Source of the DNA: Limnobacter parvus
GTDB taxonomy: Bacteria; Pseudomonadota; Gammaproteobacteria; Burkholderiales; Burkholderiaceae_B
Direction of reading: 5' to 3'
NCBI RefSeq assembly: GCF_024623725.1
Contig: NZ_JANKHG010000014.1
Location: 452,243 to 516,242 of the forward strand
DNA: 64,000 nt
Positions 5,543 to 28,121 of the stretch are shown piece by piece (positions within the stretch are counted from its first letter, which is position 1; every line of letters starts with the position of its first letter). The notes below the pieces were generated by a model that was not told the DNA's origin, searched no databases, and was given only the letters and a program-made list of their open reading frames with translations. The position numbers and the translations under genes are program-made.

Positions 5543-5585
5543 TGTCTTGCCTCTTTCGATTTTGGCTTTTCGTGATTGAAGTATG

Positions 5586-5625: not shown

Positions 5626-5656
5626 CCATGACCTTCGGCGCCAAAACAAACACACA

Positions 5657-7954: not shown

Positions 7955-8219
7955 ATTGCAAGCACCAAAGAGTATTCAAAAAAAGCTCACCCCTTGAATA
8001 AAGGAGTGGATAGATTTGTGTCCTCGTACCTGCCTTGACGGAACGCATCAACGCGATTTGCTTCTTGTTTTCCTCCGTTTTACCGATCAAAAGATGAGGG
8101 GGACAAACTTTATTTCCGTTCTGTCCGCAACCCTAACTCGGGTGGGTCACCCCCTCGAGTGGAATACTGTTTATCTATGGAATATGGAGTGAGGGCCGAC
8201 CCAAAAATGGCCCTGCCAC

Positions 8220-10741: not shown

Positions 10742-11839
10742 ATGAACACGTATCAGCCCTCACTCAACTCCCAGTGGAAATCACTGGATGGCGCACGTGC
10801 GTTAAGCATATTGTGCGTATTGGCATGCCACCTATTACCGCTTGGCCCGAAAACATATTTTGATTTGAACATCGCGGTGGGCCAATTTGGCATGGCGATT
10901 TTCTTTTCACTTTCAGGCTTTTTAATTGCACACAAACTGATCACCGAGCGATCGCTGGTTGAGTTCGCAATCAACCGGGCTTTTCGAATCATGCCGCTGC
11001 TGCTGCTGTTGCTGGCCATTACTTTCGCGTGGCGAATGCCAAATACCAGCATGGAATCGTTCAGCACGCATTTCCTGGTAATCGTGAACAATTTTCCTGA
11101 ACATTACTTCAAGGAAACAGAGCACCTGTGGAGCGTGTGTGTAGAAATTCATTTCTATATCCTGGCAGCCCTGGGTTTTCTGGTTTTTAAAAGATCTGGC
11201 CTGAAGTTGCTCGTGATGCTGGGCGTGGTACTCAGTATTTATCGCTTTCAGGAACAAGCGTTGTTCAGCACCACCACATTGTTCAGACTTGACGAACTAT
11301 TGATTGGCTTAAGCCTGGGCTTGATCTGGCACTCTGATTCACCACTTTCGCAGTACCTCAAGAAAAATCTGGCGATGATCAACCCGCTGTACATGATGAT
11401 CGGGTTGGCAGTTGCCAGCCTGGCCCCCCCACATCCCTTGCTGTTCATCCTGCGCCCATACATTGCCGCATTGTTCATCGGTTCACTGCTGTTCAACACG
11501 CAAGCTTATGCAACTCGAACCCTGGCCAGTTCAATGTGGAGCTGGATTTCCAAACACTCCTATGCACTTTACATCATCCATCCTTTCCTGCTTCTGACCT
11601 GGCTTTCATCAGGCGACAAGTTAACCATGTATGCAAAGCGTCCTCTGTTGTTCATCGTTCTGTTTGCCGTGGCCTATGTGTCTACCCGTTATTACGAACA
11701 GTTCTTTATTCAGGTAGGGAAACAGTGGATCAAATACCGCAGAACCAGCAAAACAGGCACACCCATCACCGTCCCAACCCCAACCCATTTAGAGCCAGTA
11801 TTTTATGAGCATCGTACGAAAAACACTGTTCGAACTTGA
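10742..11839 (+). CDS. Acyltransferase-3 family membrane protein (O-acetyltransferase)
   Basis: This 365-residue multi-pass protein of the acyltransferase-3 family starts with SLDGARALSILCVLACHLLPLG, holding the conserved R and the catalytic-type His, followed by FGMAIFFSLSGFLIAHKL. About ten hydrophobic segments follow. Members transfer acyl groups, usually acetyl, to sugars of exported polysaccharides at the inner membrane. A good ribosome site (GGAGAG) precedes the start. The 3' end overlaps the next gene by 35 bases. The product is likely to decorate the exopolysaccharide. Confidence 0.9.
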   Translation: MNTYQPSLNSQWKSLDGARALSILCVLACHLLPLGPKTYFDLNIAVGQFGMAIFFSLSGFLIAHKLITERSLVEFAINRAFRIMPLLLLLLAITFAWRMPNTSMESFSTHFLVIVNNFPEHYFKETEHLWSVCVEIHFYILAALGFLVFKRSGLKLLVMLGVVLSIYRFQEQALFSTTTLFRLDELLIGLSLGLIWHSDSPLSQYLKKNLAMINPLYMMIGLAVASLAPPHPLLFILRPYIAALFIGSLLFNTQAYATRTLASSMWSWISKHSYALYIIHPFLLLTWLSSGDKLTMYAKRPLLFIVLFAVAYVSTRYYEQFFIQVGKQWIKYRRTSKTGTPITVPTPTHLEPVFYEHRTKNTVRT

Positions 11840-12581
11840 TTTTTCCGCAGTGACACAGCAACAAGCAGTACAAACAATTCTGCAATGGGCTAACGACGAT
11901 TCTGTCAGCCCAAAGCGGGTTGTCACACCCAATGTCAATTTAACGGTGCTGCAAAAACGCAACCCGGAATTTCGTCGAGTATTGAATGAGTCCAGCTTGT
12001 GCCTGGTCGATGGCAAGCCCATCTACTGGGCCTCGCATTTATTCGATGTCGGTTTGCCCGAAGTGGTCACCGGCAGTGACCTGGTACCTGCTTTGTTTGC
12101 AGCACATCAAGCAAATGCCTGCGGCGAAAAGCTTCGGGTATTTTTACTGGGTGCCGCCGAGGGAGTTGCAGACAAAGCGGCCCGCAATATCATGGAGAAA
12201 TACCCCGCCATCTACATCTGTGGGGCATACAGCCCTCCGTTTGGTTTTGAACACGACCCGGTGGAATGTGAAAAAATTTGCCAGCTGATCAAATCGTGTA
12301 ATACGTGCATCTTGATCATTGGCTTGGGAGCGCCCAAACAGGAATTCTGGGCAGACCGCCACCTCGACAAGACTGGCGCCAAAGTAGCAATTTGTGCAGG
12401 CGCCACCATCGACTTTCTGGCTGGAGAAAAATCTCGCGCGCCAGCATGGATGACAAAATCAGGGTTGGAATGGATGTTCAGAATGCTTTCAGAACCCAAG
12501 CGGCTTGCAAAGCGCTACCTGAAAGATGGCTTGGCGCTGCCCGGACTTTTTTGGGCAGAGTACTGGCGAAACAGACGTTAA
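11805..12581 (+). CDS. WecG/TagA/CpsF family glycosyltransferase
   Basis: This 258-residue protein of the GT26 family has VVTPNVNLTVLQKRNPEF near residue 40 and CLVDGKPIYWASHLF with the catalytic-type Asp. LRVFLLGAAEGVADKAA, LIIGLGAPKQEFW and CAGATIDFLAGEKSRAP follow in the C-terminal half, all typical of the family. It adds a ManNAcA, ManNAc, glucose or similar residue to a lipid-linked sugar. It overlaps the acyltransferase gene by 35 bases, so they are probably coexpressed. Its TAA stop interlocks with the TAA of the opposite-strand acetyltransferase gene in TTAA. Confidence 0.93.
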   Translation: MSIVRKTLFELDFSAVTQQQAVQTILQWANDDSVSPKRVVTPNVNLTVLQKRNPEFRRVLNESSLCLVDGKPIYWASHLFDVGLPEVVTGSDLVPALFAAHQANACGEKLRVFLLGAAEGVADKAARNIMEKYPAIYICGAYSPPFGFEHDPVECEKICQLIKSCNTCILIIGLGAPKQEFWADRHLDKTGAKVAICAGATIDFLAGEKSRAPAWMTKSGLEWMFRMLSEPKRLAKRYLKDGLALPGLFWAEYWRNRR

Positions 12582-13096
12582 ATTGTGGTCGCCCGCATCA
12601 CGATGCGGGCGGGGTTACCCACCACCGTGCTGCCGTCGGGAACGTCATTGACCACAACGGCCAGCGCTCCTACTTTCACATCGTTGCCAATACGTACAGG
12701 GCCAATCACGTGGGCTCCAGAACCAAAGTCAACATTGTTACCCACCACCGGGGCGCCGGTGCCATTGCCTTTGTCGCCCAGCGTCACGCCTTGACGAAGG
12801 GTACAGTTGTCTCCCATCACCACCTCGGGATGAACAAATATTCCCCCGAAGTGCCAAATGCGCAAACCCCCGCCAATCTTCGATGCTTTGGGCAAGCCAA
12901 TTCCAGTCAGGGTTTCAACAGCCCGGTGTAAAAACCAATACCAACGGGTCAGCATTTTTTTCCGGAATCCATCGGGTCGATGATCCACTCGCCGACCAAA
13001 TCGATAAACCCAGATGGCCCAAAGGGACTGCTCCCGGAGCAAAGCCCTGGAACCACCATCAATACGCTGCAAATCGGCCGACCAATCTTGATCCAT
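12578..13096 (-). CDS. CysE/WcaB-like serine O-acetyltransferase family, probable sugar acetyltransferase
   Basis: This protein of about 172 residues has a left-handed beta-helix of hexapeptide repeats in its C-terminal half: IWHFGGIFVHPEVVMGDNCTLRQGVTLGDKG, then VGNNVDFGSGAHVIGPVRIGNDVKVGALAVV and VPDGSTVVGNPARIV. This matches the CysE/WcaB group. The location in a polysaccharide locus favours acetylation of a sugar over cysteine synthesis. An ATG at 13180 would add 28 residues that do not look conserved; neither start has a strong ribosome site. The gene runs against its neighbours and is convergent with the WecG-type gene. Confidence 0.85.
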   Translation of the reverse strand: MDQDWSADLQRIDGGSRALLREQSLWAIWVYRFGRRVDHRPDGFRKKMLTRWYWFLHRAVETLTGIGLPKASKIGGGLRIWHFGGIFVHPEVVMGDNCTLRQGVTLGDKGNGTGAPVVGNNVDFGSGAHVIGPVRIGNDVKVGALAVVVNDVPDGSTVVGNPARIVMRATTI

Positions 13097-13224
13097 ACAC
13101 AACCAAAGTTTAAGAAAACAATTCGCTGACTCTACACGACAAGCCAATTGGTGATGCGCAGTGGGCAAGTTCTGGCGCATCGAATGGCATTCACTTTACT
13201 CAAATGCACATCATGCGACATCCA

Positions 13225-13340: not shown

Positions 13341-14618
13341 GTGGAAGTTTCAGAGCATCATCGTTTGGCCGGGGGGTCAACGGCGCATCACGCCTGCAAG
13401 CGACCGTGGAAATCAACACGCCTGCTCGCGGGTTTTTTTCTTGGTCTGGCAATCAGCCTTGAAGATACGCCGGCACTAGCATTTTCCACCGAGCCCAACA
13501 AAGGCATTACTCCGTTTGGCAACTACACCCGAACTTACGACTCCAACCTGCTGAACCAGTCTGGAGAAGGTACTACACCACGATCGGACAACGTGGATCG
13601 AGTTGAGGTTGGAACACACATTGACTTTCAAATCAGCCGCCAACGATTCACCGGGCTGTTCTCACTTAGTGACACAAAACATGAACGCTTCACTGAAAGA
13701 GACACCGATGGCAATGCACACCGCCTTCGCTGGGATTCCGAAATCGGAAAAACCCTGATCGCCTCCCTTATGGGCAGTTCCGTATCGGACCAAGCCCCCA
13801 TCCAAACCGGATTTGTAACTGCCAACAAACGAGAACAAGACAATCTGGGTGCTTCATTAACTTGGAATTTTCATCCCAATTACGCGGTCCTTAGTCAATT
13901 CGCAAACACCGAAACCCGCTTCATTGGAACGGAAGACACCAATGAAGCAGTGCTTGCAGGCTTGAATCGTGACGACAAGACCAGTTACATCGGCGTGGCC
14001 TATAAACCGGGCACTGGCAGTTCAACGGCATTGTTGTTCAAGCAAGCCACCGGTGTTTTTCCAACTCGTCAAATTGTTGCGCCAGGCCAAACCGTGTCGA
14101 ACAACTTTGAACAATCCGAAACCGAGTTGCTAACCAAGTGGAATTATTCAGAGATCACTGCACTCACCTTGTCACTTTCATCCGTGAATCGTCAGCACGA
14201 AGAAATACAAAGCCGCGACTTTGCTGGAACAAACTATCGATTAGAGGTGTTCTATCAACCCACGGTGAAAACCAATTTCAACTTGATCTGGGGAAAACAA
14301 ATTGTTGGAATCTCTGATGCCAGCAACTCAGATGCTTTGGCACGCCAACTAAGCATCGCCATGAACATGGAACTCAGCAGCAAAGTGATGTTTCAGCTGG
14401 CTTATAGCCCACAAGAACTTCAGTTCGATGGAACTGATGGCATTAATACAGCACCTAGAACGGAGAGTTTGAGAGAGGGCCGTGCGGGCCTTGAATTTCA
14501 GATTGATCCCAAAGTGACGCTTGGCGCTAACCTTCGAAAACGCAGCCGGGACAGCACGCTAGTCAACACTGATTACTCCGCCCATTCTATGAATATTTTT
14601 GTTCGCTATGAACATTAA
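13341..14618 (+). CDS. EpsL-like outer-membrane beta-barrel protein
   Basis: This 425-residue protein starts at a GTG. A signal peptide (RLLAGFFLGLAISLEDTPALA) precedes FSTEPNKGITPFGNYTRTYDSNLLNQSG, close to the opening of the EpsL family of polysaccharide-associated barrels. The rest is alternating amphipathic beta-strand sequence ending in NIFVRYEH, with aromatic residues near the end as in outer-membrane proteins. The role is probably outer-membrane passage or anchoring of the polymer with EpsE. It begins the plus-strand export operon, with the start 39 bases upstream of epsE. Confidence 0.8.
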   Translation: MEVSEHHRLAGGSTAHHACKRPWKSTRLLAGFFLGLAISLEDTPALAFSTEPNKGITPFGNYTRTYDSNLLNQSGEGTTPRSDNVDRVEVGTHIDFQISRQRFTGLFSLSDTKHERFTERDTDGNAHRLRWDSEIGKTLIASLMGSSVSDQAPIQTGFVTANKREQDNLGASLTWNFHPNYAVLSQFANTETRFIGTEDTNEAVLAGLNRDDKTSYIGVAYKPGTGSSTALLFKQATGVFPTRQIVAPGQTVSNNFEQSETELLTKWNYSEITALTLSLSSVNRQHEEIQSRDFAGTNYRLEVFYQPTVKTNFNLIWGKQIVGISDASNSDALARQLSIAMNMELSSKVMFQLAYSPQELQFDGTDGINTAPRTESLREGRAGLEFQIDPKVTLGANLRKRSRDSTLVNTDYSAHSMNIFVRYEH

Positions 14619-14657: not shown

Positions 14658-15476
14658 ATGATCAAAGGACTTTTATCGCTACTGGCGTTTCTCAGTGCGC
14701 TCACACCTTTGCACGCAAGTGAAGAGAGCAGAGAATACCGATTGGGTGGTGGTGACTTGATCAGTGTCACCGTGTTCCAGAACCCGGACTTCACGGGCGA
14801 CCGTCGCGTGTCCGAAAACGGTGAGATCACCTTTCCATTGATTGGTGCTGTAGCTGTCGGCAACCTCACTATTCGGGAAGCGGAACAGGTTATCGCTGAA
14901 CGCTTAAGCGATGGCCAATTTGTGGTTGGGCCCCAAGTGTCCATCGTGCCCATTGAAATGCGCAGCGCACAGATTTCAGTGATTGGGTTCGTGAGCAAAC
15001 CAGGCCGCTATCCGCTTGACAGCCGTAACACTCGACTAAGCGATGCACTCAGCATGGCGGGCGGGGTGATTCAATCGGCACCCACGGTAAGCCTGAATGG
15101 CGGCGACCTTGTTGTTCTGAAAGGCACCAGAAACGGCGAACCCTATTCCAAGACCATTGATCTTCGGGAAATTTTCCTGAAAGGCAACGATGATCTGGAT
15201 GTGTTGGTGGTGGGCGGCGACACTTTGTACGTGGGCCGCGCCCCACAATATTATGTTTATGGCGAAGTACAACGCCCCGGTGTTTACAAGATTGAAACGG
15301 GCATGACAGTGCGGCAAGCACTGGCGCAAGCAGGCGGGCTGACACCGCGCGGATCGCAAAACGGAATCCAGATTTTCCGCAAAGATGCACAGGGCACAGA
15401 ATCGTTGATCAAACCTGATCTGGATCAGCCCCTACAAGACAACGACACCTTGTTTTTCAAACAAAGCTTTTTCTAA
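14658..15476 (+). CDS. epsE: Polysaccharide export protein EpsE (Wza/OPX family)
   Basis: This 272-residue protein has a signal peptide (about residues 1-20) without a lipobox Cys. A polysaccharide-export domain YRLGGGDLISVTVFQNPDFTGDRRV follows, then SLBB domains (FVSKPGRYPL near residue 112 and YVYGEVQRPGVYKIETGMTVRQAL near 200). OPX proteins form the periplasmic and outer-membrane part of the export channel. It is shorter than Wza and lacks the lipid anchor, so the upstream barrel probably supplies the outer-membrane pore. AAAGGACTAATC gives a good ribosome site. Confidence 0.92.
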   Translation: MIKGLLSLLAFLSALTPLHASEESREYRLGGGDLISVTVFQNPDFTGDRRVSENGEITFPLIGAVAVGNLTIREAEQVIAERLSDGQFVVGPQVSIVPIEMRSAQISVIGFVSKPGRYPLDSRNTRLSDALSMAGGVIQSAPTVSLNGGDLVVLKGTRNGEPYSKTIDLREIFLKGNDDLDVLVVGGDTLYVGRAPQYYVYGEVQRPGVYKIETGMTVRQALAQAGGLTPRGSQNGIQIFRKDAQGTESLIKPDLDQPLQDNDTLFFKQSFF

Positions 15477-15496
15477 TTGAGCCCAGGATCTATTCC

Positions 15497-16870
15497 ATGA
15501 CATTTAATCAACTGCAATTAATTTTCAGGGCTCACCTGCGAATCACTTTGACCACGCTTTGTGTGATCGTGATTGGTGCGGTTCTGGCGGCGGCGTTGTT
15601 GCCGAATGAATTCAAAGCCAATGCCACGCTGGTAGTCGACGTGCGCGCACCCGACACTGTGCTGGGCAATTCCGGCTTGCCTTTTACCTCGCCGGCCTAC
15701 ATGAACACACAGGCTGAACTTGCCGCCTCTGGCCGGGTGATTGAACAGACCATTTCTGCCCTGAAACTGGAAGAAAATGCGGAGTTAAAGGCAAAGTGGG
15801 AGGAAGGCGCCAGCGAGACACAAAGCTTCAAAGAATGGCTAGTTGCCTTCGTACAGGGCAATGTGGAGGTGGCGCCCGGGAAAGAAAGCAATACTTTGTA
15901 TATTGCTGTAACCAGCAACTCCCCTACATTTGCAGCTGAGCTAGCCAACGGACTGGCTCAAGCCTACATCACCACATCCATTGCTATGAATGTGGAGCCA
16001 GCCAAGAACTATGCGCAGTTTTTCGAGGAGCAGCAACAGGAAGCCAGAAATGAGTTAATTAAGGCCCAATCTCGCCTGTCCGACTTCCAACGTGAACGTG
16101 GCATTGTGATTGCAAGCGACGACCAGATTGATGTCGAGAATGCTCGCTTGAACGAACTTTCAAGTGCGTTAACCGACACGCAAACAAGACGTGCTGATCA
16201 AGTCGGGCGTGCTGCAAGCGCAGGTGAACAAGGACTTTTGCAAGATCCCATCAGCAATGTGGTTTTGAACACCTTGCGCTCACAGCTGCAGCAAAAGCAG
16301 TCTGAACTGGCTGAGGCCTCGGCGCGAATCGGCATTAATCACCCGGAATTTCGCCGCTTGAAGGCTGAGGTGGATGCCTTGCAAACCAGCGTGAATCAGG
16401 AAATCCAGCGAAGCAATGCCACGTTACTGGCAGGTGCACGCGCTTCAGGTTCGCAAGAATTCGCGCTGAAAAGTGCACTGGAAGAACAACGTCAACGAAT
16501 TCTTGAACTGACCGAAAATCGTGACTCTGCAATGACCCTGCGAAGGGATCTTGATGCAGCAGAAAAGCAGTTCGAACTGGTTTCAGCACGCACCAGCATG
16601 TCGGAAATTTCGAGCCGCCAAACCACGGCAAATGCATTTCTAGTGAGTGCTGCAAGCGTACCGACCAAGCCAAACTCCCCTGGATTGACCCTGATTGCGT
16701 TAAGCGCAGTGCTGTTCGGTCTGGTGCTGGGACTGGTCATTTCTTGTGCAGTTGAGTTTCTGGATTACAGGGTGCGCTCCACCGACGACCTTGGTCTGCT
16801 CGGGCTACCTGCGTTGGCGACGATTTCGTCAAACACGACACATCCAAAACTGAACTTTAATTCACGGTGA
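15497..16870 (+). CDS. epsF: Chain length determinant protein EpsF (Wzz family)
   Basis: This 457-residue polysaccharide co-polymerase has a transmembrane segment near residues 15-37 (TTLCVIVIGAVLAAALL). A long periplasmic region, largely helical and coiled coil from about 175 to 385, follows, then a second membrane segment (LIALSAVLFGLVLGLVISCA). A Pro-rich KPNSPG sits just before it, as in Wzz proteins. It controls chain length with the partner kinase. The stop overlaps the GTG start of the next gene (GTGA), so the two are translationally coupled. Confidence 0.93.
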   Translation: MTFNQLQLIFRAHLRITLTTLCVIVIGAVLAAALLPNEFKANATLVVDVRAPDTVLGNSGLPFTSPAYMNTQAELAASGRVIEQTISALKLEENAELKAKWEEGASETQSFKEWLVAFVQGNVEVAPGKESNTLYIAVTSNSPTFAAELANGLAQAYITTSIAMNVEPAKNYAQFFEEQQQEARNELIKAQSRLSDFQRERGIVIASDDQIDVENARLNELSSALTDTQTRRADQVGRAASAGEQGLLQDPISNVVLNTLRSQLQQKQSELAEASARIGINHPEFRRLKAEVDALQTSVNQEIQRSNATLLAGARASGSQEFALKSALEEQRQRILELTENRDSAMTLRRDLDAAEKQFELVSARTSMSEISSRQTTANAFLVSAASVPTKPNSPGLTLIALSAVLFGLVLGLVISCAVEFLDYRVRSTDDLGLLGLPALATISSNTTHPKLNFNSR

Positions 16871-17766
16871 ATAATTCCATGATAGCCAACAAAAACCCAG
16901 CAACCATGCAAGTTGCCAATGTCGAGGAGTTTGCTTCCCGATCAATCGGCCATATTTTGGTGAGCAACGGACGCCTCACGCACGAGGCAGCCGAGGAAAT
17001 ACACCGGATGCAACGCGAGAACGACGTTCTTTTCGGCGAAACGGGAATTGCCATGGGTTTAATCACCCGAGAGGACGTGGAGTTTGCGATTGCTCGCCAA
17101 TTTGAATATTCAGTGCTTCAAAAAGGTCACAGCGAAATTTCTGAAGATTTGGTGTCGGCGTATGACCCATTTGGCCCCAAATCTGAGGCATTCAGGGAAC
17201 TGCGAACCCACCTGTTGTTGCGCTGGTTTGAAACCGAAACCAAGGCCAAAACACTTTCCATAGTAAGTGCACAGCGCGGTGAAGGCCGAAGCTATGTTGC
17301 TGCAAACCTTGCAATTTCCTTTTCCCAACTGGGACACAAAACCCTGTTGATTGACACTGATTTCAGAAACTCCAAGCTGCATGATTATTTTGGAGTGTCC
17401 AATCGTCGCGGTCTTTCTTCCCTGCTTCAAGGCAAGGGAAATTCGAGCTACTTCCTGCCGGTGACAGGTATCCGCAATCTGTCCATCCTGCCAGCAGGGC
17501 CCATGCCCCCGAACCCGCAAGAGCTGCTGTCACAAAGTTATTTTCCTGAATTGTTGAATGAACTTTCGAAGCACTTTGATCTTTTGATTATGGACACGCC
17601 TGCGGCCATTCTTTACTCCGACGCAACGGCAGTGTCACTGCGCTCAAGTGCGTCCCTGGTTGTAGTCAGACAAGGGCATACCAAAGTGGAGCAACTACGG
17701 CGAGTGAACGCCAGCCTGCAAAGTATTGGTGGCAACCTATTGGGCTCGGTGCTGCTGGATTTCTAA
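16867..17766 (+). CDS. epsG: EpsG-type BY-kinase (polysaccharide chain-length tyrosine kinase)
   Basis: This 299-residue P-loop protein has an N-terminal domain (about residues 25-85, IGHILVSNGRLTHEA...EFAIARQF) that resembles the GspE/MshE N-terminal domain. The kinase domain has Walker A SAQRGEGRS (134-142), Walker A-prime LLIDTDFRN (161-168) and Walker B LLIMDTPA. The usual P-loop Lys is Arg (GEGRS), and no C-terminal Tyr cluster is present; the protein ends SVLLDF. It should regulate polymer length with EpsF at the inner membrane. The GTG start overlaps the epsF stop; an ATG at 16879 is an alternative. Confidence 0.9.
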   Translation: MNNSMIANKNPATMQVANVEEFASRSIGHILVSNGRLTHEAAEEIHRMQRENDVLFGETGIAMGLITREDVEFAIARQFEYSVLQKGHSEISEDLVSAYDPFGPKSEAFRELRTHLLLRWFETETKAKTLSIVSAQRGEGRSYVAANLAISFSQLGHKTLLIDTDFRNSKLHDYFGVSNRRGLSSLLQGKGNSSYFLPVTGIRNLSILPAGPMPPNPQELLSQSYFPELLNELSKHFDLLIMDTPAAILYSDATAVSLRSSASLVVVRQGHTKVEQLRRVNASLQSIGGNLLGSVLLDF

Positions 17767-17767
17767 G

Positions 17768-19117
17768 ATGACATTGGCAACACCCAAATTGATTGGTTTG
17801 ACTGCTCTGCTTGGCCTGGGTGCGTTGTTTGGCGTATTCGCCAATATGTTTGGCCAGCATGTCGTGCTGATGCTAGGTACACCCCTGCTGCTACCTCTGG
17901 GTTTGCTGTTGTTTGTCAATCCACGCCTGCTCTTTTTGGTGCTGATTGGCACGCGTTGCGTGCTTGATCCGATTCTAGAATCCGCGCGGTTTTCATCCAG
18001 CTTTGGACTGGGAGCATTGCTCAACTTGTTGCTGATTGCCTGCGCGGTGATCATCAGCATTCAGGCGAACAAAACGACCGTGCGTCAAAGTGTGCTGCTG
18101 TGGATCCTTCCACTGCTGGTTATGGCCTTGGGAATTACTTATTCACCTGAACCTTTGTCTGCATTCAAACGCATGATCGCGTTCGTCAGTTATTTTTCAG
18201 TTTTCACGGTGGGCATGATACTGATTGAAGAAAATCAGCTCATCAAGCTGCTTCGGGTCATTGTGTTCTCAGCGGTGTTGCCACTGCTGGTCGGCATGTA
18301 TCAGTTCGCGACGGGGTCTCTGGCAGTTGAAGGTCGCCTGGCCGCAACTTTTACCCATCCAAACATCTATGCGTTTTATTGCTTGCTTGTGTTGATTGTG
18401 CTTGTCTACCTGCAAAGGTTGCAACAAGCTGCTGGAGAAGCCACACCGTCAATCACCGAAAAAATTGTTCAGTGGATTTTGCTTGTCCTGTTGATCGTGT
18501 CCATCATTCTTACCCAAACTCGCAGTGCCTGGTTGGCATTGATACTCATCGGTTTGATGTATGGCCTTTTGTTCTCGAGAAAAACCTTAATTTGGCTGTT
18601 GCTGGGTTTGTCTCTGGCGGCGCTTAGCCCTGCCGTTCAAGACCGGGTTGTTGATCTTTTTTCTGGCAACGAAGTAATCAACTACAGCAAATTGAATTCT
18701 TTCGCCTGGCGCCAGCACATTTGGGAATCTGGCTTGAACTGGATGAGTACATCCCGTTACCTGTTGGGCTACGGCATTGGTGGGTTCATTCATCACTCGC
18801 CTGATTTCTTCCCACTTTCAGGCGGCAGCAAATTTGGCGCACACAATGTATTCGTCGAGCGGTTTTTCGATGGGGGCCTGCTGGCATTTGGCGTTTTCTC
18901 AGTGTTCTTTCTGGCCCAGATAACAAATGCATTTAAGCTGATCAAGCAAGATCAATTCTCTGCACTGGTTTACTTTGGTTTACTTTTGTCGTACCTCACC
19001 CTGAATGCGTCAGACAACGTGGTCGACTACCTTGCCTACAATTGGTATTACTGGGTTGTGGCCGGGGCCTTTTACGCTACTGCAACACGCGTCGTGTCGA
19101 GCAAAGCCAGTTCATGA
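17768..19117 (+). CDS. O-antigen ligase/polymerase-like membrane protein (Wzy)
   Basis: This 449-residue, very hydrophobic protein has about twelve membrane segments. A large periplasmic-type loop carries RLAATFTHPNIYAF and, later, GYGIGGFIHHSPDFFPLSGGSKFGAHNVFVERFFDGGLLAF, typical of the Wzy_C/O-antigen ligase family. It would polymerise flipped repeat units. The start at 17768 lies one base after the epsG stop; an earlier in-frame start inside epsG is unlikely. The stop overlaps the next start (ATGA). Confidence 0.88.
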   Translation: MTLATPKLIGLTALLGLGALFGVFANMFGQHVVLMLGTPLLLPLGLLLFVNPRLLFLVLIGTRCVLDPILESARFSSSFGLGALLNLLLIACAVIISIQANKTTVRQSVLLWILPLLVMALGITYSPEPLSAFKRMIAFVSYFSVFTVGMILIEENQLIKLLRVIVFSAVLPLLVGMYQFATGSLAVEGRLAATFTHPNIYAFYCLLVLIVLVYLQRLQQAAGEATPSITEKIVQWILLVLLIVSIILTQTRSAWLALILIGLMYGLLFSRKTLIWLLLGLSLAALSPAVQDRVVDLFSGNEVINYSKLNSFAWRQHIWESGLNWMSTSRYLLGYGIGGFIHHSPDFFPLSGGSKFGAHNVFVERFFDGGLLAFGVFSVFFLAQITNAFKLIKQDQFSALVYFGLLLSYLTLNASDNVVDYLAYNWYYWVVAGAFYATATRVVSSKASS

Positions 19118-20601
19118 ATGGTAAATCGCTTCGTGGCGCCTACCTGCTGGTAGGCGGCAAGGGTTTGTCTGCGGTAATCGGCCTGGGCAGCATGCTTATT
19201 TTGGCCCGCCTTCTTGAACCCGAAGATTATGGTTTGGTGGTGCTGGTGGAGGCCGTTGTCACGCTTCTTGCGGCGATCACCGAACTTCAAATGGCCTCGG
19301 TGCTTATTCACCTCCCCAGAGTGGATGATGCGCACTTCAGCACAGCCTGGACGCTGAATCTGATCCGCGCATTCATCCTGTGTTTGCTGGTGATATTGAT
19401 TGCACCCGCGCTTGCTGGTTTCTATGAAGACCCCCGATTACTCGGCATCGCCTATGTGTCCAGTTTGTCGCTTTTCTTAGGCGCCTTGCTGAATCCTAAA
19501 ATGGCAATCCTGATTCGGGACCTTGATTTCAAGAAAGAATTTTTACTTGGACTGAGCCAAAAAATTGCAGGCTTTGTGGTCACTGTGGTGGCAGCCTATT
19601 ACTTGCGCAATTATTGGGCCTTGGTGCTGGGCACTCTTGCAACCCAAGTGTGTGGATTGCTTGTGTCCTATTTCTGCTATCCCTTCAAACCTGCCTTTAC
19701 CCTGAGCAAATGGCGAGAACTCTGGGGCTTCTCAGTGTGGCTTTCGCTGGCCAATTTCATAAAAACCCTGAACTCCAAGCTGGATCAATTTGTGGTTGGA
19801 AAAATGTTCAGCACAGGAACGACTGGGGTGTATTCATTGGCCACCCGCTTATCAACGGTGTTGTTCACTGACACCCTGGGTGCTGCTCTGCGTGTGATTT
19901 CACCCAGTCTGCGTGCCCACACCAACAACCAGTTGGCCATGAACAAAGCATATTTGAATACGCAAAGCCTGGTCACACTGGTTTTTTTACCTGTTGCCAG
20001 TATTACCAGCGCTTTGTCCCTACCATTGATCGACCTGGCGCTGGGGTCGAAGTGGGCGGAAGTCACGGATGTATTTCGCGTGCTGGTGCTTGCCTTGTGC
20101 CTGGAAGCAATTGGCGGTGTTGGTTTGTCCGTGGTCATGGCCACACTAAACACCCGCCTCGCCTTCTTTCGCGACCTGCTGTCTATTGCGGGGCGCGCTG
20201 CCTTAATGGCGATTGGACTGTATCAAGGAGGCTTTACAGGATTGCTGTTGGGGCGGGCGGCCTCGTCGGTTTTAGACCTGCTGTTGTACTTCGCAATCGC
20301 TGGAAAAGTCACTGGCCTGTCCATTCGTGAACAACTTGTTTTGAATTGGCGCACGGCGTTGTCGTGTGTGCTGGTTTACCCGGTTCTTTATGCCCTGCAA
20401 ACACCACCCTGGTTCGAACTTGGCGAATCCAAACTCATTCAGGCTTTGTGGTTGCTGACCATGATCAGCCTGGGCTTCTTGATGCAAGTCGGCGTACAGG
20501 CCTTTTTGTGGCTTGCCAGTGGAAGACCCAACAGCATTGAAGTGGTCTTTCTTTCATACATCCGGCAGAAATTTAGCGCCAAAGGAAAAACATCGCCATG
20601 A
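19114..20601 (+). CDS. Polysaccharide flippase (Wzx, MOP superfamily)
   Basis: This 495-residue protein has about 12-14 membrane segments. It starts GAYLLVGGKGLSAVIGLGSMLILARLLEPEDYGLVVLVEAVVTLL, the standard opening of the polysaccharide biosynthesis flippase family, and later has KLDQFVVGKMFSTGTTGVYSLATRL. It would flip undecaprenyl-linked repeat units across the inner membrane. It is coupled by ATGA overlaps to the polymerase upstream and the glycosyltransferase downstream. Confidence 0.93.
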   Translation: MNGKSLRGAYLLVGGKGLSAVIGLGSMLILARLLEPEDYGLVVLVEAVVTLLAAITELQMASVLIHLPRVDDAHFSTAWTLNLIRAFILCLLVILIAPALAGFYEDPRLLGIAYVSSLSLFLGALLNPKMAILIRDLDFKKEFLLGLSQKIAGFVVTVVAAYYLRNYWALVLGTLATQVCGLLVSYFCYPFKPAFTLSKWRELWGFSVWLSLANFIKTLNSKLDQFVVGKMFSTGTTGVYSLATRLSTVLFTDTLGAALRVISPSLRAHTNNQLAMNKAYLNTQSLVTLVFLPVASITSALSLPLIDLALGSKWAEVTDVFRVLVLALCLEAIGGVGLSVVMATLNTRLAFFRDLLSIAGRAALMAIGLYQGGFTGLLLGRAASSVLDLLLYFAIAGKVTGLSIREQLVLNWRTALSCVLVYPVLYALQTPPWFELGESKLIQALWLLTMISLGFLMQVGVQAFLWLASGRPNSIEVVFLSYIRQKFSAKGKTSP

Positions 20602-21848
20602 ATACGAACCGAGTTGCTTATTTGGTGAACCAATATCCGAAGGTAAGCCACACTTTTATTCGCCGTGAAATTATCGCGCTTGAATCACTGGGGCTGCATG
20701 TCAGCAGATTGTCCGTTCGTGGCTGGGACAATGAGGTGGCCGACCTGGTTGATGAAGCTGAACGGCAAAAAACCAGCTACCTGCTACAACGCGGTGTGCT
20801 GGGTTTGTTGAAATCCGGGTTCTCAGTGTTTTTGCAACGTCCCACTTTATTTTTGAAAACCCTTCGTATTGCGTTGGGCATGGGTCTACGGGCTGACCGT
20901 GCTTGGCCGTTTCACCTTGTTTATTTGCTGGAAGCCTGCAAAGCGCTTCAATGGCTGGAACAGGAAAAAATTGAACATGTACATGCCCACTTCGGTGCAA
21001 ATTCTGCAGAAGTGGCGATGTTGATTCACTTGTTGGGAGGACCAACTTACAGTTTCACCGTGCATGGCCCCGAAGAGTTCGACAAGCCTGAATTCATTCG
21101 ACTCGGTTTGAAAGTAAAAAATTGCGCATTTGTTGTTGCCATTACGTCGTACTGCAGAAGCCAGATTTATCGCTGGATTCAACACGCCGATTGGCAGAAG
21201 GTCAAGGTGGTGCGATGTGGCATTGAAGCCGATTTTCATGACAACTTGCCAGACACATTCCCAATCGAGCCACGCCTGGTTTGCGTGGGGCGGCTGTGTG
21301 AACAAAAAGGTCAACTTATTCTGTTGGCAGCAGCAGCAAAGCTGAAAGCAAAATCAATCGACTTTCAACTTGTGTTGGCGGGTGACGGAGAAATGCGCCC
21401 AGAAATTGAACGCCAAATCGCAAGCCTTGGTTTGACCGGGAATGTACACATCACGGGGTGGATCAGCAGCAGCCAGGTGCGCGAAGAAATTTTGAAATCC
21501 CGTGCCATGGTACTGCCCAGTTTCGCGGAAGGACTGCCGGTTGTCATTATGGAAGCCATGGCGTTAAAGCGCCCCGTGATCAGCACTTATATTGCAGGAA
21601 TTCCTGAACTGGTGGAGTGCGGAAGCAACGGATTCTTGTGCCCGGCTGGCGATGTCGAAGCATTGGCTGTCCACATGGAAACTTGCCTGCGTGCCGATGA
21701 ATACACCCTGCGACGCCTTGGTGAAAACGCACAGAAAGCCGTACTGGCCCAACACCACATTACGACCGAGGCCAGCAAGCTTGCTGATTTGTTCGCCAAT
21801 GTGAAGGGCGAACCCAACACGGCATGGAGCGACAATAACCCATGTTGA
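20598..21848 (+). CDS. Glycosyltransferase family 4 (GT-B) protein
   Basis: This 416-residue GT-B glycosyltransferase has an N-terminal acceptor domain with HVHAHFGANSAEVAMLIH and FTVHGPEEFDKPEF. The C-terminal donor domain has LVCVGRLCEQKGQLILLAAAAKL, LVLAGDGEMRPEIERQI and ILKSRAMVLPSFAEGLPVVIMEAMALKRPVISTYIAGIPELVECG, the E-x7-E donor-binding region of the family. It is probably cytoplasmic and adds a sugar from a nucleotide donor to the lipid-linked repeat. It overlaps the flippase gene by 4 bases and the next gene by 7. Confidence 0.93.
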   Translation: MNTNRVAYLVNQYPKVSHTFIRREIIALESLGLHVSRLSVRGWDNEVADLVDEAERQKTSYLLQRGVLGLLKSGFSVFLQRPTLFLKTLRIALGMGLRADRAWPFHLVYLLEACKALQWLEQEKIEHVHAHFGANSAEVAMLIHLLGGPTYSFTVHGPEEFDKPEFIRLGLKVKNCAFVVAITSYCRSQIYRWIQHADWQKVKVVRCGIEADFHDNLPDTFPIEPRLVCVGRLCEQKGQLILLAAAAKLKAKSIDFQLVLAGDGEMRPEIERQIASLGLTGNVHITGWISSSQVREEILKSRAMVLPSFAEGLPVVIMEAMALKRPVISTYIAGIPELVECGSNGFLCPAGDVEALAVHMETCLRADEYTLRRLGENAQKAVLAQHHITTEASKLADLFANVKGEPNTAWSDNNPC

Positions 21849-23050
21849 TTCTTAACGGTTTGATTGCTTTTCTCGCAACGTTGCTGGCCATCCCTGTGCT
21901 GTGGTTTTGTATTCAAATAGCTGCAGCATGCTGGAGACGCAACTCCAGCCAGCCGCAAGCCACTTCATACATCAATTCGACTGATTCTTTAAGAATCGCT
22001 CTGTTGATTCCTGCGCATGATGAATCAGTGAACTTGATTCCCACCCTGCGTTCCGTTCAGCAGCAGGGCATTAAAAACCTGCGCGTGGTCGTGGTTGCAG
22101 ACAACTGCAGTGATGACACTGCCGAAGTCGCACGCAGCGAAGGCGCCGAAGTGATTGAGCGAACCAATCCCTTGCTACGTGGCAAAGGCTACGCACTTGA
22201 TTTTGGAGTTCAATACCTTGCCAAAACTCTGCCACAGGTGGTGGTGATTCTTGATGCAGATTGTGTGTTGAGTCCCAAAGTGATTGAACCCTTGAGTTTG
22301 CTTGCCTTAACAACCAAACGCCCAGTGCAAGCGCTTTACTTGATGAAAAATACAGGCGATGTGTCTGTGAAATCCAAGATTGCAGAGTTTGCATGGTTGG
22401 TGAAAAATCATGTTCGACCATTGGGTTTGCACAACATGGGCTTGCCTTGTCAGCTCACCGGATCCGGCATGGCCTTCCCATGGTCTGCGCTATCAGCAGT
22501 GCCATTGGCCACCGGCGAAATTGTGGAGGACATGAAACTGGGAATTGCACTGACCGCGCTGGGTTATCCACCCTTATTTTCCGAGCGCACTTTGGTCATC
22601 AGCCAATTTCCCACGAACCAAACCGGTGTGAAATCACAACGCATTCGTTGGGAACACGGTCACTTGGCGATGATATTCAAAGAAGGAATTCCAAAGCTGC
22701 GAACTGCTTTCGCAACGCGTGATGTGTCTCTGTTTTTCCTCGCGCTTGACCTGTGCATTCCACCGCTGGCTTTGTTGATTGCGCTTACCGTGATTTGGCA
22801 ACTGTTGGCTGGCGTTTTTTGGGCTTGGTCAGGCAACTCCCTACCTTTTTTGGCAGGTTCAATTTACCTGATCGGGATAGGCTGCGCAGTGGCGATGGCT
22901 TGGCGCAAATTTGGCAGGCATGTTATATCCGGCCGGGAACTTTTAACGGCTCCCGGCTATATTGTTTCCAAACTGTCGGTGTATGTGGGCTTCATATTTC
23001 GCCGACAGGTCAAATGGGTTCGTTCAAAACGCGACAATGAACCAAAATGA
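21842..23050 (+). CDS. Membrane-bound glycosyltransferase family 2 protein
   Basis: This 402-residue GT2 enzyme has one N-terminal membrane segment, a GT-A domain (ALLIPAHDESVNL, VVVADNCSDDTAEVA, VVILDADCVLSP, with GEIVEDMKLG as the ED block and KSQRIRWEHGH as QxxRW) and a C-terminal cluster of membrane segments (LDLCIPPLALLIALTVIW and others). Such processive-type enzymes extend polysaccharides at the inner membrane. It is the last plus-strand gene of the operon. Its stop lies 16 bases from the oppositely oriented secreted paralogue gene. Confidence 0.92.
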   Translation: MLILNGLIAFLATLLAIPVLWFCIQIAAACWRRNSSQPQATSYINSTDSLRIALLIPAHDESVNLIPTLRSVQQQGIKNLRVVVVADNCSDDTAEVARSEGAEVIERTNPLLRGKGYALDFGVQYLAKTLPQVVVILDADCVLSPKVIEPLSLLALTTKRPVQALYLMKNTGDVSVKSKIAEFAWLVKNHVRPLGLHNMGLPCQLTGSGMAFPWSALSAVPLATGEIVEDMKLGIALTALGYPPLFSERTLVISQFPTNQTGVKSQRIRWEHGHLAMIFKEGIPKLRTAFATRDVSLFFLALDLCIPPLALLIALTVIWQLLAGVFWAWSGNSLPFLAGSIYLIGIGCAVAMAWRKFGRHVISGRELLTAPGYIVSKLSVYVGFIFRRQVKWVRSKRDNEPK

Positions 23051-23066
23051 CAAACATCCCTTTTTT

Positions 23067-24557
23067 CTATCGTGACAAAGTCTTGCTCAGGGGGTTGATG
23101 ATGCCTTCATCCTTTGCATAAACAAAGGCCCTTACCCTGCTTTCCCCACCATTGTCGGATCGTTTTCGAACCGACAAAACAGCACGGCTCGACTCGCCAG
23201 GCCAGGTGAATTCGACAGAATCACCATTGCCGAGCCAATGAGAACTGAACATTGTGCGATTGCCCTTGTTGCCCAAAATCGTCAGTTGAAGTTCGCTGTC
23301 TTCAGAAGACTGAAGCTTTAAGTTATAGCGCTGCCCACCCTCCATTTTTGCCCAATTCACACCACTGAAACTTCGATTGTTTCGATGCTGAAATTCGGAA
23401 CGCGACGAAGCCCCGGTGAGGATCAAAGACTGCGACCAGGTGTCGAATTTTGCGGTACCTTTTCCTGCAGTGGCAACCCAGGGGCCGCGCATGGAAATCA
23501 TGTTCAGCTTTTCTTCTGGACTGAATTTCCTTCCATACCCGTCAAGCCAACCCTTCACACCCACCACTTGGCGCAATGCCTTTTGCATGCGTTTCAAATC
23601 CTGATCGACAGCATGATTCCACTTTGGTTTGTGCAGATTAAAATCTGCCCCATTTTCCACATAGATATAAAAAGGCGTGCCATGGTTTCGATCAACCACA
23701 TATGCACCATACACCTTCAGTGTTTCTGCCACCTTTCGCAGGTCACGGTCTTCAATCGAAGCAGTGTCGAAATCTTCGGGCAGCATCATCAACGCCCCTT
23801 CGGGAATCATGCCGGTGTTGTCCCGCCAAGTTCGGTCTGCCGATGAGGCGGGGAACACATAGCCGGTTCGACTAGACAGTCCGCTGAATGTAAGTGACAT
23901 GGCCAGCGCATGCCGGTATGTTTTTTGACCATCATTGATTTCGTGTTTGCGGATCAGGCCCGCCATGGGAGGCACAGCAGCAGCACGCGCGCCCTGAAAG
24001 TAATGGGAGGGGTCGCCCCAACCACGACCGTCTAGCCGTGTCCAGGCATACATGGAGGCCGTCCAGCGTCCATCTCTGCCTTTTTTCAGATTTAGAAATG
24101 AATGAATGACACCATCAACGGGATCAATAATATCGGCATGACCGTCGCTACCTGCAGCAGGCACTGTGCGGGTTGGCCAACGCGGAATGGTAATACTGGT
24201 AATGAACTGTTCGCCATCTAGTTCCCAAAGACCGCGTTTGCCCGGCAGCCCAAAAACCTCCACAGGCTTGTCGTATTTGCTGGCCAGGAATGCCGTGCTG
24301 GAATAAGGCCCTTCACCCACCAAAGGACTGTAGGTGGAATCTGGAATTTGAAAATATCCGAATTGAACGCCGACTGGCCTGGCGTTCCAATAGGATTTTG
24401 CAGAAAAGGGTCGCTCGAAGGTTCCGAAACCAACAGATTGTGAAGAGCTTGTTTTGGGTGGTTCGGCCTGTGTTTTACAAGAGGCCAGTGCTGTGACAAA
24501 AAAGATGAGTGCGACAGCAAGGCCTGGCCTTGATGAGGAAAAAGATAACAAATTCAA
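23067..24557 (-). CDS. Putative lipoprotein of unrecognised family, paralogue of the next gene
   Basis: This protein of about 496 residues has a lipoprotein signal (TALASC, lipid-modified Cys27 in the chosen start). I do not recognise a named family. The mature part contains SDGHADIIDPVDGVIHSF, RLDGRGWGDPSHYFQGARAA, MAGLIRKHEINDG, HALAMSLTFSGLS, VFPASSADRTW and GAYVVDRNHGTPFYIYVENG, all with close counterparts in the adjacent gene at 24653. The C-terminal third looks beta-rich. The start is a TTG at 24557 with GGAG six bases upstream. A TTG at 24596 would place the start inside a palindrome. Position after the polysaccharide operon suggests a polymer-binding or polymer-cleaving role; this is inference only. 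Confidence 0.85.
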   Translation of the reverse strand: MNLLSFSSSRPGLAVALIFFVTALASCKTQAEPPKTSSSQSVGFGTFERPFSAKSYWNARPVGVQFGYFQIPDSTYSPLVGEGPYSSTAFLASKYDKPVEVFGLPGKRGLWELDGEQFITSITIPRWPTRTVPAAGSDGHADIIDPVDGVIHSFLNLKKGRDGRWTASMYAWTRLDGRGWGDPSHYFQGARAAAVPPMAGLIRKHEINDGQKTYRHALAMSLTFSGLSSRTGYVFPASSADRTWRDNTGMIPEGALMMLPEDFDTASIEDRDLRKVAETLKVYGAYVVDRNHGTPFYIYVENGADFNLHKPKWNHAVDQDLKRMQKALRQVVGVKGWLDGYGRKFSPEEKLNMISMRGPWVATAGKGTAKFDTWSQSLILTGASSRSEFQHRNNRSFSGVNWAKMEGGQRYNLKLQSSEDSELQLTILGNKGNRTMFSSHWLGNGDSVEFTWPGESSRAVLSVRKRSDNGGESRVRAFVYAKDEGIINPLSKTLSR

Positions 24558-24569
24558 AAGACGCTCCGT

Positions 24570-24601
24570 AAACGTTGATAGGCATCTGACTATCAACGTT
24601 T
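24570..24601. promoter_or_regulatory. Perfect 12-bp inverted repeat upstream of the secreted lipoprotein gene
   Basis: AAACGTTGATAG (24570-24581) and CTATCAACGTTT (24590-24601) are perfect complements around an 8-base centre. The repeat sits just upstream of the GGAG ribosome site of the gene ending at 24557 and could be an operator or a 5' RNA hairpin. It lacks a T run and is not placed like a terminator of the upstream paralogue, although that gene ends at 24653 and a read-through stop cannot be excluded. Confidence 0.45.
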
Positions 24602-24652
24602 GGGCGTCATTAAAGTTTCGAAAATAAACGATCTACTTCCGACCACTCAGAT

Positions 24653-26176
24653 TTATTCAATTACCTCGGTGAGTGTGGTCCGGATTGAAGTTTTTTCGCC
24701 CACCCCGCTTACAACCCCAAGAATGGAGACTCCATCCGTTGAGGGCCAATGAAGCCTGAAGGTTTCCCCATCTGCCAGCGGCCTTGTGTGAAATTGCTCT
24801 ACGCCGCCACCCCAGTACCGAAGGTAGGCGCGGCCGCCGTTGGTGGCATGCACCCGGAATTCGTAGAGTTTACCTTTTTCAGGTTTCGCCCATTTAATAC
24901 GTGAAATAGATCGACCTGATCCACTTTCAGCTGCATACGCTTTGTCGGTTGGCCCAAATACTGCGCTTTGAGACAAAGAATCGTACACAGGATAAGGAGC
25001 ACCTTGAATAACAGGCTTCCACGGACCCCGCATGGTGGTTAGATTCAAGGGCGCAAGAGATTGGACAGGTTCGCCGCGATTGTTAACCCAGTCTTTGGCG
25101 TAGGTGACCTGACGCAGCGCTTCACGGATGCGATGCAGATCATTGCCCACCGGTGAATTCCACCCACCCTTGTGAAGATTGAAGTTGGTACCATTTTCCA
25201 CATAGATGTAAAACGGTGTGCCCACATTCCTGTCGATGACGTAAGCCCCGTATGTTTTCAGGGTGTTCACCACTTTTCGCAAGTCAGGGTTGCTTATCTT
25301 GGTTGAATCGAAAGTGGGGGGCAACATCAACAAAGCGCCGGTGGGAAAGCGGCCTGAGTTCTCTTTCCACGTCCTGTCACCCGATGTGGCCGGGAATACG
25401 TACTGTTCGTACTGTGACATGCCTGTGTAAGTCAGTGACATGGCCAGCGCGTGATAGTACTGGCTCGCGCCATCGTTGATCTCTTTTTTCCGGATCAGCC
25501 CCGCCATGGAAGGAACACCCGCCGCGCGGGCACCCTGGAAGTAATGCACACCATCGCCCCAACCCCGACCGTCCAAACGCGACCAAGCATACTGAACCGC
25601 CGTCCAGCGTCCGTTGGTTTTGCGCAGTTGCCAGAAGGAATGAATGATGCCGCTTTCCGCATCGACAATGTCGGCGTGACCGTCTGTGCCGCTAGCCGGA
25701 ACAGTGTCCGCAGGCCAATGGGGTATGGTGATTGAAGGCAGATTGGATTCTGAATCAGGATCCCAGACGCCGTGCGCGCCGGGAGGCGGATACACCGTCA
25801 TGGATTCATCGCTGGGCTTGGCTTCAAATGCGGTGGTGGAATATTTGCCCGTGCCAATCAATGGGAAATAAGTGGACGTAGGAATGACCGAGCTGCCAAA
25901 AATGACTTGACGCGGTCTGATGTTCCAAAGCGAATTTACATCGAACGGACGATCGTAGGTGGCGATGTCTTTGTCTGTGTAAGGGGAAGGCTCCGGAGTG
26001 GGCGTGGTGACCAGCGGTGCAGAAGGAGTATATCGGCAGAACCCGCTGAATGAACTGACTTGACAAATTGGCTCGAAACTTGATGTTTGAGACAACACTG
26101 GTTGCGTTGCAATGGTGAGGCCCACTAAAACGCCAAAACTAAAAAACAACTTCGTATTTGCTGCTTGTGTCGACAT
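24653..26176 (-). CDS. Putative secreted protein of unrecognised family, paralogue of the preceding gene
   Basis: This 507-residue protein has a Sec signal peptide (LFFSFGVLVGLTIATQPVLS, then QTSS) and a Pro/Thr-rich linker at about residues 50-70. The same long conserved body follows as in the 23067-24557 product: HADIVDAESGIIHSF, SRLDGRGWGDGVHYFQGARAA, MAGLIRKKEINDG, HALAMSLTYTG, DLRKVVNTLKTYGAYVIDRN and GTPFYIYVENG. The paralogue has a lipid anchor and this one does not, so one may be tethered and one released. The start at 26176 follows GGAATCC; a TTG at 26194 is less likely. No function is assigned. A polysaccharide lyase, hydrolase or binding protein is possible from context. Confidence 0.85.
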   Translation of the reverse strand: MSTQAANTKLFFSFGVLVGLTIATQPVLSQTSSFEPICQVSSFSGFCRYTPSAPLVTTPTPEPSPYTDKDIATYDRPFDVNSLWNIRPRQVIFGSSVIPTSTYFPLIGTGKYSTTAFEAKPSDESMTVYPPPGAHGVWDPDSESNLPSITIPHWPADTVPASGTDGHADIVDAESGIIHSFWQLRKTNGRWTAVQYAWSRLDGRGWGDGVHYFQGARAAGVPSMAGLIRKKEINDGASQYYHALAMSLTYTGMSQYEQYVFPATSGDRTWKENSGRFPTGALLMLPPTFDSTKISNPDLRKVVNTLKTYGAYVIDRNVGTPFYIYVENGTNFNLHKGGWNSPVGNDLHRIREALRQVTYAKDWVNNRGEPVQSLAPLNLTTMRGPWKPVIQGAPYPVYDSLSQSAVFGPTDKAYAAESGSGRSISRIKWAKPEKGKLYEFRVHATNGGRAYLRYWGGGVEQFHTRPLADGETFRLHWPSTDGVSILGVVSGVGEKTSIRTTLTEVIE

Positions 26177-26216
26177 GATAAGGATTCCGTTCAATGCTGA
26201 TTTGGTTTGAAATCAA

Positions 26217-27242: not shown

Positions 27243-28121
27243 ATGAACCCAGAAGAATTACAGAATTTTTTAGGCAATTCCCCGCTTCCTGGCGCTTCCG
27301 GCACCGGCCCATTGTTTGAGCAGCTTGGGGAAAGTCTTCAACCGATCACTGAATTTGACACCATCGAACCGCGTGAAATGCTGTACCACAGCGGCTCTGA
27401 CAGCATCAATAACTTGTTGGATTCTGTGCCTGCGCAATATCGAAATTTTTCTGACCCCAGCGGTTTTGTAAGCACGCAATTCGCTGAAGACAGCAGCACC
27501 AATGTGACAGAAACCAGGGTCTTCGGCAGACTGATCCGCAGCACAGAAACTGAAACCCACACGCGCGATGAAAGCTTGACCGTTGGCAACGACACACCCT
27601 TGCAAACAGTGTTTTCACACACGGTGAATGAAAGCACACAAAGCACCACCCTGCCATTGACACCCGCACTGAACAACAGCTCAACCAGCTTTGAAGAAAC
27701 ATTCAGCATCGACAACGATCTGTTGTCAGCCGGCCTGACCCACACAGACACCAGTGCAACGTTGAATGAAAGCCCGTTGCTGGACACGCACAGCACCACA
27801 TTAAACCTGAATATCGCGGATCAGGCGGAAATTTCCTTGGGCCTGAGTGATTTGAGCTTGGGTGGAGAAAGGGTATTGGAAGCAATTACACTGACCTATC
27901 CTGGGCTAGAAGGTGAACCGAGCAGCTTGGTTCTGCCCGTGTCGACCAACCTGCTAGTGCCGCTGGCACTTGGCACAGCCGAAGGTTTTGCAAACAACCC
28001 AGACCCCACTGCGCTGCTGGACCTTGTGACCGGAATTGCTGATTTGCCAGTGCCCATCGGTTCATTGACTGGCGGATCAGGAATTTCTGAAGGCCTGCCT
28101 TCACTGGAGACTTTGGGCTAG
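27243..28121 (+). CDS. Acidic, Ser/Thr-rich hypothetical protein without Lys, Cys or Trp
   Basis: I do not recognise this 292-residue protein. It has no signal peptide and no membrane segment. It is rich in Thr, Ser, Leu and Asp/Glu and contains no Lys, Cys or Trp at all. The middle (about residues 85-195) is Thr-rich with short irregular repeats (TETETHTRDES, THTDTSATLNES). The C-terminal 100 residues are Leu/Gly/Pro-rich (LSLGGERVLEAITLTYPGLEGEP). The composition resembles proteins exported by type I systems or surface adhesins, but no RTX repeats are seen. The start is supported by GAGGAAA. It is divergent from the FAH gene, with an AT-rich region between. Confidence 0.8.
   Translation: MNPEELQNFLGNSPLPGASGTGPLFEQLGESLQPITEFDTIEPREMLYHSGSDSINNLLDSVPAQYRNFSDPSGFVSTQFAEDSSTNVTETRVFGRLIRSTETETHTRDESLTVGNDTPLQTVFSHTVNESTQSTTLPLTPALNNSSTSFEETFSIDNDLLSAGLTHTDTSATLNESPLLDTHSTTLNLNIADQAEISLGLSDLSLGGERVLEAITLTYPGLEGEPSSLVLPVSTNLLVPLALGTAEGFANNPDPTALLDLVTGIADLPVPIGSLTGGSGISEGLPSLETLG

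Follow-up and report, generated by a model that had tools for sequence, protein, structure and literature searches.

Exopolysaccharide (EPS) gene clusters commonly encode an enzyme for trimming their polymer or setting it free. In Limnobacter parvus, two adjacent paralogous genes lie beside an EPS operon, and the question raised by this locus is what their products, here called A and B, do. The window analyzed is a stretch of 64,000 nucleotides (contig NZ_JANKHG010000014.1, positions 452,243 to 516,242 of the forward strand), and positions in the window are counted from its first letter. A and B belong to a family that no Pfam or NCBIfam model covers; it follows such EPS pathways in many Betaproteobacteria and recurs in phage tails. 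Both proteins carry export signals, two domains, and residues conserved throughout the family. Some glycan-directed role is probable for them, and the chance that they are enzymes cutting the EPS of their own locus, as their sequences and the analogy with known systems suggest, is about even.

The paralogous pair and its export signals

The preliminary description of this stretch had reported two adjacent paralogues sharing long sequence blocks, one with a lipoprotein signal and the other with a plain Sec signal. Both open reading frames (ORFs) are real and lie on the minus strand, the quoted blocks are present, and A and B share 49% identity across 431 residues (E 6e-147). Regular-expression calls agree on the signals, which are of the plain Sec type in A and, in B, a cysteine after LAS inside a hydrophobic stretch (regular expression only). 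From these signals, both proteins would be exported by Sec, with A released past the inner membrane and B probably held on a membrane by a lipid. The earlier idea of a tethered and a released form fits A and B, its support consisting of the signal motifs themselves. Among three B-clade proteins in the tree, the consensus lipobox is found in B of the window only, and the cysteine is kept in all three. Signal classes across 86 entries, some truncated and one (L074; L and G numbers designate loci and genomes) counted twice, were 59 Sec, 9 lipoprotein, and 4 Tat-like by regular expression, with 14 not called. A-type proteins (A, L002, L004, L005, and L021) have a two-cysteine motif, P[IV]C[QE]V...SG[FY]C, at the start of the mature chain, which in A of the window follows the signal at residues about 44-60; B is without it.

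The pair had also been placed at the end of the EPS operon. B ends at 23067 and the GT2 gene at 23050, and the pair is convergent with the plus-strand eps operon; it therefore lies beside the operon and does not form its tail.

Distribution of the family and origin of the pair

A scan of a genome collection found 71 loci, mostly in Betaproteobacteria by record title. These loci are biased to motif-keeping relatives because they were found through two short motifs; related genomes among them do not count as independent, and 14 of the 71 fall short of 18 kb. Outliers occur in Methylobacter, Labilithrix, and Actinomycetospora, and Mitsuaria sp. 7, Rhizobium rhododendri, and Indioceanicola carry members on plasmids. 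Relatives are present in 7 of 100 related genomes, five of those in the genus. A class-level search with profile A1 matched at least 6 of 274 genomes at E 1e-5, the window's own included, and a phylum-level search with profile A4 at least 3 of 398 at E 1e-8, such counts being minima wherever the scoring covered only part of the candidates in a genome. The phylum-level search missed the window's own genome, although profile A4, built from three distant proteins alone, finds A there at E 3.6e-9, with B not among the matches listed. In Myxococcota, profile A1 matched 12 of 77 genomes, and EpsA-like proteins (E 1e-35) are found in 6 of the 77. Profile comparison joined two groups to the family, a distant bacterial one at 97.9% (E 3e-13) and the phage group at 99.6%.

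In distant members the N-terminal domain (N-domain) stands alone or with other parts. It is joined in one protein to a ricin-type lectin and a GH18 chitinase-type domain (L007, 958-3498), to FN3 (L096), or to RTX repeats (L019), and it occurs with no further Pfam domain in L092, L093, L095, and L006. Matches of distant members to glycoside hydrolase or lyase profiles fall in the fused parts only, bar one GH127 match in L094, which is weak (E 0.061, below cut-off) and lies outside the N-domain. In Indioceanicola (L019), a polysaccharide cluster contains two family members a short distance apart (4575-6419 and 7740-8927), one of them with RTX repeats that point to type I rather than Sec secretion.

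Among viruses, 69 Gordonia phage records carry family relatives. A viral scan by profile gave 11 loci with A3, one with A4, and two with A1; a viral scan with protein A alone as the query found no match. The tail family PHROG 17388 was the sole match in a PHROG search, covering residues 61-315 of B (E 8.6e-14) and 142-323 of A (E 2.1e-10). In Gordonia phages MrWormie and LuckyLeo, the portal gene is immediately followed by the family-domain tail gene (L016 4356-6584 and L017 3144-5021), which is not the case in KidneyBean (L018). A TrbI match of A (E 0.16) was taken as chance. The preliminary description could not place the proteins in a named enzyme family, and this assessment stands; no match to a family of unrelated known function was found. 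A literature search found no description of the A/B family, a result that does not prove that none exists.

In a tree of 71 rows, A and B form sister clades inside one 7-row group (support 100/99), and so the pair is the product of a duplication in this lineage. Two or three copies are present in the stretch at 11 of the 71 loci, including those of Massilia, Methylophilus, Roseateles, and Duganella, whose multi-copy members the tree puts in clades other than those of A and B. In one genome of the same genus (G003, 91% complete), A is present and no B was found.

Domains and invariant residues

The AlphaFold model of the N-domain of A has a predicted local distance difference test score (pLDDT) of 91.6 and a predicted template modeling score (pTM) of 0.91. 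The modeled C-terminal domain (C-domain) supports a glycan-binding-like assignment: it has the same jelly-roll fold as carbohydrate-binding modules (CBMs) of family CBM16, but shares 13% identity with them and matches no Pfam CBM sequence profile. Conservation was assessed in an alignment of 88 sequences in seven groups (69 of the EPS clade, including A and B, 2 from Actinomycetospora, 7 from phages, 1 from Rhizobium, 3 of an alphaproteobacterial type, 3 distant, and 3 others). Glu238, His248, and Asp321 of A are kept in all 88 rows, which are not independent since several are near-identical (phages, genus mates), and Pro268, Gly286, and Gly316 are likewise kept in all. Arg235, absent from two, is widely kept in the N-domain, as are Asn91 and Asp171.

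Association with exopolysaccharide genes

The gene context was surveyed with 11 EPS proteins of the window as queries, within 10 kb of each family locus. At least three of the 11 genes are present at 52 of the 71 loci (47 of the 57 that span at least 18 kb) and at none of 15 control stretches, a small control of 20-kb stretches from two genomes of the same genus. In 44 of the 60 loci having any EPS gene, the nearest one shares its strand with the family gene; most often this nearest gene is a serine-acetyltransferase homologue (25 of 60). The Rhizobium locus (L015) has five of the 11; the Indioceanicola locus has none by similarity, but Bac_transf, Wzy_C, Wzz, and glycosyltransferase genes are present. 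The proposed pairing with epsE, epsF, and epsG in every case did not hold, as 60 of the 71 loci show one copy of the family gene in the stretch covered and any of the three genes lies within 10 kb at 38 of 71. In a Massilia group (L081, L083, L084, and L085), family genes are found away from EPS genes, beside neighbors that we take to resemble glutamyl-Q tRNA(Asp) synthetase and citrate synthase.

Within the genus, the five genomes with the family are the same five that have GT2 (E 1e-60), and 11 have neither (re-tested by profile), two of these being only 85% and 65% complete. By our arithmetic, the chance of this 5-of-16 coincidence is 1 in 4368 were all 16 genomes independent; since the family gene and GT2 are adjacent, the co-occurrence may reflect one island gained or lost together. 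Beyond the genus, G069 has the family and GT2, and G090 has the lectin/GH18 fusion only. The link to EPS drawn in the preliminary description is thus well supported by gene context and by co-occurrence with GT2 in the genus.

Proposed function and alternatives

In the mechanism that we propose, the C-domain would bind or hold EPS from the neighboring Wzx/Wzy (EpsA/C/E/U-like) pathway. The N-domain would most likely cleave it as an endo-acting hydrolase, lyase, or transglycosylase, through the invariant Glu238, His248, and Asp321 together with Arg235, Asn91, and Asp171, which are also widely conserved. Cleavage would set the chain length or free the polymer from the export machinery, the same job being possibly done in Myxococcus by EpsB (NF041873). 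EpsB was not found in the window's genome and is unrelated to A and B, and so A and B could fill its role by unrelated means. We infer cutting from the three invariant acidic and histidine residues, the chitinase-type fusion, the use in phage tails, and the analogy with EpsB and with DUF4185/GH183. More tentatively, the N-domain may be a novel catalytic fold that defines a novel family of carbohydrate-active enzymes with a Glu/His/Asp center, with which bacteria would process their own Wzx/Wzy exopolysaccharide and actinophage tails would cut host surface glycan, A and B being a released and a lipid-held member of a pair duplicated within one genus.

Several results weigh against cutting. Neither A nor B has a match in Pfam, NCBIfam, or PDB sequences, a profile search of PDB included, and none of the glycoside hydrolase or polysaccharide lyase families in Pfam and NCBIfam matches them. 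The N-domain has no convincing fold match in PDB, lyases and hydrolases included, although absences in VIA are not taken as absence of the fold. Of the earlier proposal of a polymer-active protein, then, the EPS link and the glycan-binding-like C-domain are borne out, and the lyase or hydrolase fold that was to confirm it was not obtained. Seven of the 57 long loci (L065, L072, L077, L081, L083, L084, and L089) have none of the 11 EPS genes and L070 has one. Distant members in Myxococcota were inspected in four stretches: a lone epsG-like gene is present in one, and the other three lack all 11. Outside the genus, GT2 occurs without a family match in G041, G072, and G095, and the family is thus not required for every such pathway. 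EpsB is missing from the same three genomes and from five of six Myxococcota genomes tried, which makes the idea of EpsB replacement weak.

The alternative that survives best, although unlikely, is that A and B are non-catalytic glycan-binding adaptors, with lipid-anchored B holding EPS at the cell surface, A released in the matrix, and the N-domain in a binding or structural role. A CBM-like C-domain and an N-domain without an enzyme fold match speak for this reading, a lipoprotein with a released partner would suit an anchor and a matrix protein, and pure binding is possible for phage minor tail proteins. However, Glu, His, and Asp invariant across seven groups with different partners exceed what binding usually demands, and all three are kept in both paralogues. 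A special case of the cutting enzyme, in which the N-domain would be a distant double-psi-barrel glycan enzyme like MltA (GH102) or expansins, is quite unlikely. Modification of the exported chain in place of cutting, by an esterase, transferase, or epimerase, is very doubtful: acyltransferase and serine-acetyltransferase-like neighbors are frequent and His/Asp/Glu chemistry would suit, but the residues conserved in at least five of the seven groups include no serine, and phage tail relatives suit cutting or binding better. It is improbable that the pair is unrelated to EPS and hitch-hikes on a mobile EPS island, for although some members lie elsewhere (Massilia L081, L083, and L084; Actinomycetospora L089) and adjacency in the window's genus may make co-occurrence a matter of linkage, loci with at least three EPS genes span 16 genus names in record titles (some of them labels of metagenome-assembled genomes) in several arrangements, the Rhizobium and Indioceanicola members are again in polysaccharide clusters, and the Methylobacter genome with an isolated family gene has an EpsA homologue beyond the 10-kb flanks.

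As a candidate for an EPS-cutting enzyme, the family can be tested by mutation of three residues, and it could provide a new tool against biofilm matrix or actinobacterial surface glycan.

Features of the window

Table 1. Positions of the A/B pair, its domains and conserved codons, and the neighboring EPS genes in the window.
Feature	Position	Strand	Remarks
Protein A	24653..26176	-	Sec-type signal; first gene of the pair; likelier start ATG 26176 (read by eye)
Protein A, longest ORF	24653-26194	-	TTG 26194, 513 codons; residue numbering of A counts from TTG 26194
Protein B, paralogue of A	23067..24596	-	509 codons; lipoprotein-like signal
Protein B, likelier start TTG 24557	GGAG box 24564-24567	-	Preferred over TTG 24596 (read by eye)
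Cys codon, LASC lipobox of B	24477..24479	-	Regular expression
N-terminal domain of A, residues 73-379	25058..25978	-	AlphaFold; carries Glu238, His248, Asp321
C-terminal jelly-roll domain of A, about residues 381-513	24656..25054	-	CBM16-like fold
Glu238 codon of A	25481..25483	-	B: Glu219, from A/B alignment
His248 codon of A	25451..25453	-	B: His229, from A/B alignment
Asp321 codon of A	25232..25234	-	B: Asp302, from A/B alignment
Hairpin between A and B	24570..24601	-	Just upstream of B's likely ribosome-binding site
Acyltransferase (+), WecG/EpsA-like glycosyltransferase (+), hexapeptide protein (-)	10742..13180	.	
EpsL-like outer membrane protein	13341..14618	+	NCBIfam EpsL 1.1e-58, below cut-off
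epsE (OPX), epsF (PCP), epsG (tyrosine kinase)	14658..17766	+	NCBIfam EpsE above cut-off; EpsF, EpsG below
Wzy-type polymerase/O-antigen ligase and Wzx-type flippase	17768..20601	+	Pfam Wzy_C, Polysacc_synt_3
GT4 (M. xanthus EPS EpsE-like) and GT2 (EpsU-like)	20598..23050	+	Below NCBIfam cut-offs

The plus-strand operon comprises epsE, epsF, epsG, the Wzy_C protein, the flippase, GT4, and GT2, and the remaining genes of the EPS neighborhood, from the acyltransferase to the EpsL-like protein, lie upstream. The WecG-type glycosyltransferase, GT4, and GT2 match the NCBIfam EpsA, EpsE, and EpsU models, all below cut-offs. Judging from the model names and from passages of PMC7484181, these models appear to derive from the EPS pathway of M. 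xanthus. The minus-strand hexapeptide protein has a Hexapep match only, its serine-acetyltransferase-like name being taken from a Mitsuaria homologue. On the other side of the pair, the window contains a Ser/Thr-rich ORF of 292 residues (27243-28121), and the adjoining ORF (28134-29153) looks like an acyltransferase.

The arms of the hairpin between A and B are 93% complementary across 15 bases, and the 3' arm abuts the likely ribosome-binding site of B. RNA of the intergenic stretch folds at -35.9 versus -20.6 kcal/mol in shuffles, with a z of -4.48 that takes in the whole intergenic stretch, including a second small hairpin. In L021 (11663-11698) and L010 (2907-2942), which have adjacent A and B and are identical here, a 13-base perfect inverted repeat is found in the same place; its core is common with the window hairpin and its arm ends are different. 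No comparable hairpin was found in L035, which has B alone. The hairpin may have a putative role in setting the A:B ratio. A promoter and terminator scan gave counts not above those in shuffles.

Comparison with known systems

A sequence relation to the MltA lytic transglycosylase (GH102) was rejected by profile, with no PF03562 match and a profile comparison of 0.2-0.7% against 24 of 30 fetched MltA loci that were kept after a motif filter. The combined family alignment in this comparison contained two out-of-frame rows (L093 and L006); the separate profiles A3, A4, and A5 did not have this fault. MltA has no sequence similarity to A or B, and no peptidoglycan context was seen for the pair.

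The EPS pathway of M. xanthus is Wzx/Wzy-dependent and, as described in passages of PMC7484181, includes the serine acetyltransferase EpsC and the predicted glycosyl hydrolase EpsB, which these passages present as still biochemically uncharacterized. EpsB is thus a predicted glycan enzyme beside EpsA, EpsC, EpsE, and EpsU, and the A/B genes also adjoin an EpsA/C/E/U-like Wzx/Wzy pathway. One EpsB example (L185) has a lipoprotein-like start (by eye). Unlike EpsB, A and B have no NF041873 match, and the family profiles are unrelated to L185 and L186. Among 38 other genomes tried, EpsB was found in one, a member of Myxococcota (G786), below the curated cut-off.

The minor tail proteins of Gordonia phages (PHROG 17388) have an N-domain homologous to that of A and B in which Glu, His, and Asp are kept, but they belong to the virion and differ in their N- and C-terminal parts. 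GH183 (DUF4185) differs from the family in sequence, as scans of A, B, and two phage relatives found no DUF4185 match. It nevertheless sets a precedent in the cited part of PMC10115798, where a then uncharacterized domain common to bacteria and a Gordonia phage turned out to be a polysaccharide hydrolase, an endo-D-arabinanase.
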